A stretch of 64,000 bases of DNA. Origin: Psococerastis gibbosa (taxonomy: Eukaryota; Arthropoda; Insecta; Psocodea; Psocidae). A program made the position numbers and the translations under genes. The first letter of the stretch is position 1. Each line of letters opens with the position of its first letter. This document shows positions 47,388-48,114 of the stretch, one piece after another. The stretch covers positions 9,796,001 to 9,860,000 of the forward strand of contig OZ020485.1 of assembly GCA_963971405.1 (NCBI GenBank). The letters are read 5' to 3'. The notes below the pieces were generated by a model that saw nothing but the letters and a program-made list of their open reading frames with translations, was not told the DNA's origin and did no database searches.

Positions 47388-47620
47388 AAGAAATCGTTCC
47401 TCAATTGGAATAAGGCTCGGAGGTGTCTTTGCCCCCGTACCAGCATCGATACAGTATACGGGGTTATAATTGCTGGTTGACCATCTAATTCTAGTTATTC
47501 TTTATTATGAGGACTTCGTGCATTGGCTCAAACTCCTCAATGACTGCTATCGAGGGAGGAGCAGAAGATTGGCTCCTCTGAGAAGCTACTCTAATTAGAT
47601 CTTGGTCTCTTTGCTATCTT
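47388..47620 (+). pseudogene. Decayed copy of the KAT7 catalytic exon (copy 1)
   Basis: 47388-47485 reads KKSFLNWNK and later CCCGTACCAGC, matching the exon's [10 protein letters not shown] and CCGCCGTACCAGC. 47549-47620 contains cgagggaggagcagaagatt (20 of 20 identical to the exon), then a degraded match to [12 protein letters not shown]. Between them is about 60 bp without a clear match. In-frame stops and frame changes rule out use as an exon. TCC for TCA, AAG for AAA and CTT for CTC in conserved codons are synonymous, so the copy may have evolved under coding constraint before it decayed. It lies about 160 bp upstream of the working exon in the same orientation. Confidence 0.82.
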
Positions 47621-47657
47621 TGGCCCGTTCTTCTACTTTAAATCTGGTCATTTCAAC

Positions 47658-47762
47658 CTGTACAATTCCGTGTTACGACTGTATCCTAATTGACTTCTCC
47701 TACCTCCTACCCTAGATGAAACTTACAGCACTCTCCGCTCTCGGCTTAATTTCCTCATACAC
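47658..47762 (+). pseudogene. Decayed partial copy of the KAT7 catalytic exon (copy 2)
   Basis: 47692-47709 and the following bases read LIDFSYLL, the same eight residues as the live exon, but seven of the eight codons differ at synonymous positions. Upstream, cctgtacaattccgtgttac matches the PYQRQGY region with lost frame. Downstream, cactctccgctctcggctt matches PLSDLG. About 20 bp encoding [12 protein letters not shown] is missing. It stops 16 bp before the live exon. It looks like a second, older duplicate of the exon, or a former alternative exon. Confidence 0.75.
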
Positions 47763-47778
47763 TACATAATTGTTGCAG

Positions 47779-48019
47779 GAAAAGAATTCATTCCTAAACT
47801 ACAACGTCTCGTGTATTCTGACGCTCCCGCCGTACCAGCGTCAAGGATACGGCCGCCTGCTGATAGACTTTTCATACCTTCTGACGAGGGAGGAGCAGAA
47901 GATTGGTTCACCCGAGAAACCACTCTCGGATCTCGGTCTCATCTCCTACAGAAGCTACTGGAAGCATGTCCTCCTGGAGTACCTTTGTAACTTCGCCGGC
48001 AAGGAGATTAGCATCAAAG
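47779..48019 (+). CDS. KAT7: KAT7/HBO1 MYST acetyltransferase, catalytic exon
   Basis: This exon encodes 80 codons plus one base and holds the catalytic core. In order it shows [17 protein letters not shown] (the cysteine matches Esa1 C304), the acetyl-CoA-binding loop [16 protein letters not shown], and [19 protein letters not shown]. The glutamate of SPEKPLSD is the position of the MYST general base (Esa1 E338). The exon ends with [10 protein letters not shown]. [12 protein letters not shown] and NFxGKEISIK are KAT7-like rather than KAT6-like. The acceptor is ttgttgcag at 47770-47778 and the donor is CAAAG|GTAAGC at 48019/48020, so the exon enters in phase 0 and leaves in phase 1. No stop or frameshift is present. 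It directly continues exon 383-569 across about 47.2 kb. Decayed copies of the same exon flank it on both sides. Confidence 0.97.
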
Positions 48020-48049
48020 GTAAGCATTATTATTATTGAAAGGCTTTTT

Positions 48050-48114
48050 ATGGACTTCAGAAGTCCATTGCACCTACCCATGTCAACGAACCCATCGGTG
48101 TCAAAGGTAAGTGT
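48050..48114 (+). pseudogene. Possible echo of the 3' end of the KAT7 catalytic exon (copy 3)
   Basis: The stretch ends in GTCAAAGGTAAGTGTAAT, close to the live exon end and donor (ATCAAAGGTAAGCATTAT). It contains cctacccatgtcaacgaacc, which aligns loosely to the [10 protein letters not shown] codons. The match is short, so this is weaker than copies 1 and 2. Confidence 0.45.

Follow-up and report, generated by a model that had tools for sequence, protein, structure and literature searches.

Decayed tandem relics of the KAT7 catalytic exon, one interrupted by a mitochondrial ND1 fragment, lie directly upstream of the live exon

The KAT7 locus

We analyzed a 64-kb stretch of contig C2 (hereafter, the window) from a genome of 409 Mb in 68 contigs, which protein similarity and gene structure suggest to be insect-like. 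The window holds three consecutive live exons of KAT7 (HBO1/chameau, a MYST acetyltransferase), all on the forward strand. The upstream exon (383-569) ends in phase 0 with ...VGYFSK, matches Pfam MOZ_SAS (E = 2.9e-30), and is followed by an intron of 47 kb. Then comes the catalytic exon (47779-48019; EKNSFLNYN...ISIK; MOZ_SAS, E = 4.8e-33), which, as read from the sequence, is 241 nt long, runs from phase 0 to phase 1, and is followed by a donor GT at 48020. The 13 nt immediately before it (47766-47778, ATAATTGTTGCAG) contain its live 3' splice site. When these two exons are joined, their top match among solved structures is KAT7 (E = 6.8e-77), which we take to be the human protein, and the identity of 47779-48019 as a live KAT7 exon is confirmed as far as homology goes. 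This exon presumably carries the acetyl-CoA loop and the catalytic Glu. For the last live exon (49855-50078), which reads (D)ISQEMAINSYDIV... through to the stop codon, Pfam gives nothing at E 0.001, and we assume that it belongs to KAT7 from its likeness to the KAT7 sequence.

Several other features of the window were observed. In the 47-kb intron, two facing, near-identical arms of about 110 to 120 nt (~1370-1488 and 1622-1745) are probably a foldback transposon, and a 209-codon stop-free stretch on the reverse strand (40290-40919) matches no Pfam family at E 0.001. A 27-nt minisatellite of 8.4 copies with 95% matches (24721-24947) is open in several frames. Just downstream of the catalytic exon, a 40-nt inverted repeat (48983-49081; 93% complementary, 19 nt between the arms) is enclosed by a 93-nt, 73% inverted repeat (48798-48890 and 49109-49201) that looks like a MITE-type hairpin.

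Exon copies and their origin

Upstream of the catalytic exon and on the same strand lie two decayed copies of it, both of which contain stop codons (TAA, TAG) and indels, in agreement with a previous sequence-only reading of this stretch that described them as broken by stops and frame loss. Copy 1 begins with a 5' piece (47385-47452) that covers exon codons 1 to ~24 (DKKSFLNWN...PPYQ..Y), with frame-breaking indels past codon 9, and resumes in a 3' piece (47535-47615) that covers approximately codons 32 to 56, matches at 82% over 49 nt, and includes one extra TAA codon. Within the 3' piece, positions 47551-47572 are identical to the live exon from 47885, an exact block of 22 bases where 20 had been counted previously. 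Copy 2 (47674-47754) corresponds to codons 24 to 56, with a net loss of 18 nt and a 3-nt insertion, and ends in LSALGLIS; its main indels (-18, +3) preserve the reading frame. At the DNA level, its similarity may continue as far as 47765 (codon 60), and in the upstream direction it may weakly reach about 47633, with the upstream part (47633-47672, read as SSTLNLVISTCTIP) giving a hint at the protein level alone (tblastn, E = 0.12). In the LIDFSYLL segment of copy 2, six of the eight codons differ from the live exon, all at third positions, and GAC and TAC are identical; the seven changed codons given by the sequence-only reading were one too many. Because the last similarity of copy 2 directly abuts the 13-nt acceptor segment, the branch/polypyrimidine region of the live exon would lie in the copy 2 remnant.

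The local scores of the copy 1 5' piece (tested as 47370-47460), the copy 1 3' piece (47535-47640), and copy 2 were reached by 0 of 4,000 same-length segments of the window, taken forward, reverse complemented, or reversed and leaving out 47330-48160, 300-600, and 49800-50100, under all three scoring schemes used, which bears out the earlier description of decayed tandem KAT7 exon copies. For copy 2, the margin over the background maximum is thin in one scheme (34 versus 33) and clear in another (53.8 versus 42.4). With the live exon as the query, tblastn finds the 3' piece of copy 1 at E = 6e-4 and copy 2 at E = 0.30, values that carry little weight, since the searches were run without composition correction and the best hits in reversed-window controls reached 0.018 with the same query and 6e-4 with a human KAT6A query. 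The case for copy 2 could not be made from tblastn by itself and is carried by its place, direction, and order. By homology, copies 1 and 2 are confirmed as collinear, same-strand relics of the live KAT7 exon.

The catalytic segment is common to all MYST genes, and the copies might have been inserted as a processed copy or as an exon of another MYST gene. A comparison with other MYST genes, which had been proposed as a check on the KAT7 assignment, upholds the KAT7 origin. The two pieces of copy 1 score 36 and 70 against KAT7, copy 2 scores 34, and copy 3, a short repeat downstream of the live exon, scores 30; the best scores among five other MYST exon loci, searched on both strands, are 25 and 34, 24, and 20, respectively. 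Another MYST gene as the source was rejected, as the best paralog score is lower than the KAT7 score for each and every piece. In tblastn, the match of a human KAT7 query covers the whole of copy 1 and opens with a weak lead that resembles YFSK (WIRK, E = 0.09), as a processed insertion might leave, but no neighboring KAT7 exon sequence was found convincingly attached to the copies by tblastn of the window. We regard both kinds of insertion, processed copy and other MYST exon, as very improbable; with KAT7 scoring above the paralogs and no neighboring exon attached, the copies would thus be local duplicates. No further KAT7 copies were recovered from the genome in DNA searches and tblastn, in which the live-exon queries failed to detect copies 1 and 2 as well; older relics elsewhere would thus escape the same searches.

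Mitochondrial insertion

Between the two exon pieces of copy 1 lies an 81-base fragment (47454-47534, forward strand) that reads as NADH dehydrogenase subunit 1 (ND1) under the invertebrate mitochondrial code (code 5), an identification that is backed by PDB matches of related fragments. It is identical at 66 of 81 positions to 10607-10687 of contig C68 (blastn, E = 2e-15), a contig of 17,084 bases that we take to be the mitochondrial genome because of its long ND1 frame; a tRNA scan of this contig under the bacterial code found none. The fragment combines a nuclear location with likeness to the species' own mitochondrial genome, as a numt does, and, together with a short deletion, it stands in for approximately codons 25 to 31 of copy 1 (about seven codons lost). 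Judged by these matches, copy 1 is two exon pieces flanking a numt. The sequence-only reading had taken 47388-47620 as a single exon copy, which was correct for the exon pieces and missed the ND1 insertion in the middle.

A search of the genome DNA with copy 1 returned five further places, each matching just its middle. These were rejected as exon copies, since all five lie inside ND1 matches and are numts. This genome is rich in numts, with an ND1 query of 145 residues having at least 39 matching stretches genome-wide, some of them adjoining and C68 included; blastn of C68 against the window finds one numt.

Set beside the mitochondrial sequence and a further pair of numts, the insert has eight private bases among its 81; of 89 first and second codon positions compared between copy 1 and the live exon, 13 differ. 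When these two fractions are compared, the numt seems to have entered copy 1 once the constraint on the copy was gone, perhaps about two thirds of the way back, an estimate made from small numbers.

Donor-site repeat downstream of the live exon

Copy 3 (48101-48124, forward strand) repeats the end of the catalytic exon and its donor at a spacing of 87 nt, with 79% matching over 24 nt. Its donor at 48107 has the full consensus (AAG/GTAAGT) and lies 87 nt (29 codons) past the live donor (AAG/GTAAGC), and exon-side similarity farther upstream, to about 48083, is doubtful. Against background segments that were not limited to donor-like sites, copy 3 reaches P = 0.0002 to 0.0005 when the donor and the intron side are included and P = 0.01 to 0.45 for the exon part alone. 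What stands of the proposal that copy 3 is a further exon copy is mainly the 24-base donor-site repeat.

Copy 3 could instead be no duplicate at all, having arisen by chance or been selected as an alternative donor 87 nt downstream, a reading to which we give somewhat less than an even chance. The similarity centers on a consensus donor, which is common to any donor, the exon part by itself stays at P = 0.01 to 0.45, and the spacing is a multiple of three. Against this, the match including the intron side is rare in the background (P = 0.0002 to 0.0005, again with a background not restricted to donors), and beyond the live donor the reading frame closes at a TGA, past GKHYYY, so that use of the donor at 48107 would give a short extension and then a stop.

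Array structure

Copies 1 and 2 both end at codons 56 to 60 of 80, with roughly the last quarter of the exon missing; the copy tails were placed inconsistently in three MAFFT alignments. The last confident codon of copy 2 (codon 56) ends 24 nt from the live exon, which is the widest gap possible there, and codon 56 of copy 1 is 58 nt from codon 24 of copy 2. With gaps of this size, copies 1 and 2 have neither a donor nor room for an intron.

The copies are probably nonfunctional relics that a local tandem duplication left where the KAT7 intron meets the exon. In this model, we observe the homology, the order, the numt, and the missing tails and donors and infer the duplicated unit, the order of events, and the lack of function. 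About 190 nt, comprising the acceptor and roughly codons 1 to 60, would have been duplicated in tandem, giving a pair of upstream units that lacked a 5' splice site, with the 3'-most, complete exon being kept in use. The upstream units would then have been absorbed into the intron and have decayed through substitutions and indels, copy 1 would later have captured the 81-base piece of mitochondrial ND1, and the stretch immediately before the live 3' splice site would now be supplied by the end of copy 2.

A partial unit made of 60 codons and 13 nt of acceptor (~193 nt) predicts an array of 193 + 193 + 241 + 87 = ~714 nt, close to the ~640 nt that remain when the numt is subtracted. If there had been four full exons, with introns assumed to be 60 nt, the array would take ~1,200 nt. 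Joint inclusion of exons would shift the reading frame, because the exon length of 241 nt is 1 mod 3, and in a partial-unit array the use of an upstream acceptor would do so as well. Counting against the relic model, decay has left the copy 1/copy 2 junction at background level whether compared with a tandem-unit or a full-exon-tail model (P = 0.35 to 0.98), so that it does not confirm the unit.

Codon-position bias

The sequence-only reading had held that simple neutral duplication would not favor synonymous sites. This does not agree with our simulations, in which a neutral copy paired with a constrained live exon shows 40 to 43% of aligned mismatches at third positions, compared with 33%. 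An excess over 33% is expected even for a neutral copy, since most changes that the live exon goes on accumulating are silent, and "mostly synonymous" differences between a relic and the live exon are by themselves no evidence of past translation. The simulations used the live exon as a stand-in for the ancestor, a live replacement rate of 3% of neutral, and an assumed indel rate; copies were born together in the joint runs, and simulations were retained only when their mismatch and aligned-length totals resembled those observed.

Observed third-position mismatches amount to 32 of 60 (53%) for copies 1 and 2 together, with copy 1 alone at 18 of 31 (P = 0.025) and copy 2 alone at 14 of 29 (P = 0.15). 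In the joint neutral simulation, 32/60 has P = 0.0105 with equal rates and P = 0.025 with the live lineage evolving 1.5-fold faster, and P ranges from 0.005 to 0.021 when mutation bias and CpG are varied in four settings, at each of two alignment thresholds (the observed counts being identical at both thresholds). The third-position share therefore lies above the null for a copy that was neutral from birth (P = 0.005 to 0.025) and, like the frame-preserving main indels of copy 2 (-18, +3), speaks against the relic model. As a signal it is weak, a modest hint of a constrained phase and no proof of one.

This bias can also be read as the trace of duplicate exons that were complete, each having splice sites of its own, and that were once translated in place of the live exon for part of their history and later lost their tails, donors, and introns by deletion. 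A copy that was constrained for half of the time fits 32/60 (P = 0.11 to 0.32) better than one that was neutral from birth (P = 0.005 to 0.025), and the main indels of copy 2 keep the frame. By eye, there is a pyrimidine-rich stretch upstream of copy 1, and copy 3 has kept a consensus donor. A study of mutually exclusive exons indicates that clusters of asymmetric exons can stay mutually exclusive through frameshift (PMC5740500), and the 241-nt exon is asymmetric in the same way. Such a history would, however, require separate deletions of the 3' end, the donor, and the intron for both upstream copies, and the excess is small (60 mismatches; P = 0.15 for copy 2 alone). Counting the poorly aligned parts as well also removes most of the excess relative to a null of 47% at third positions: in such whole-alignment counts, which depend on gap costs, copy 1 gives P = 0.031 in one of five gap-cost settings and P = 0.07 to 0.24 in the other four, and copy 2 gives P = 0.30 to 0.72 in three settings and remains unaligned in two. 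Neither copy has an open frame of similar length to the live exon, with stops, frame loss, missing 3' ends, and the numt standing in the way, and no acceptor and donor with an intron between them separate the copies, the gaps being at most 24 nt and 58 nt.

We consider this history of loss from full-length exons unlikely, although it keeps some weight. That the upstream copies were once translated at all is doubtful to a similar degree. The earlier suggestion of past translation as mutually exclusive exons has weak statistical support from a silent excess over the neutral null (P = 0.005 to 0.025) and is opposed, as regards mutually exclusive exons, by the lack of a 3' end, a donor, and intron space. 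It is likewise rather improbable, judging from the relics as they stand, that an ancestor spliced alternative KAT7 catalytic exons, carrying the acetyl-CoA loop and catalytic Glu, and that this lineage lost them, leaving silent-biased relics behind; if it did, the ancestor would have had a MYST acetyltransferase with a second version of its catalytic core.

Comparison with known systems

Dead exon copies document how tandem exon duplications fail, and the numt in copy 1, as a neutral yardstick at the very same site, could be used in combination with relatives to test for a translated phase of duplicate exons before decay. The 81-base ND1 piece resembles other numts in its sharp ends and its place in nuclear DNA, and it differs from them in lying inside a decayed exon copy, where it is usable as a relative clock.

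In the open-access literature on KAT7/chameau exons, degenerate exon copies, and numts, we found no account of these relics. Tandem exon duplication as such is a known kind. A survey describes many tandem exon duplications, unannotated ones among them (PMC9013439). The KAT7 copies share with these divergent, same-strand, exon-like sequence in the intron beside a live exon, with homology above chance and the neighboring exon as its source, and differ from them in that both upstream copies are truncated, contain stops and frame loss, and, in one case, harbor a numt. Unlike mutually exclusive exon clusters (PMC5740500), the copies here are without donors, full length, introns, or an open frame; what they have in common with such clusters is the adjacency of homologous exons and an asymmetric length that bars joint inclusion.
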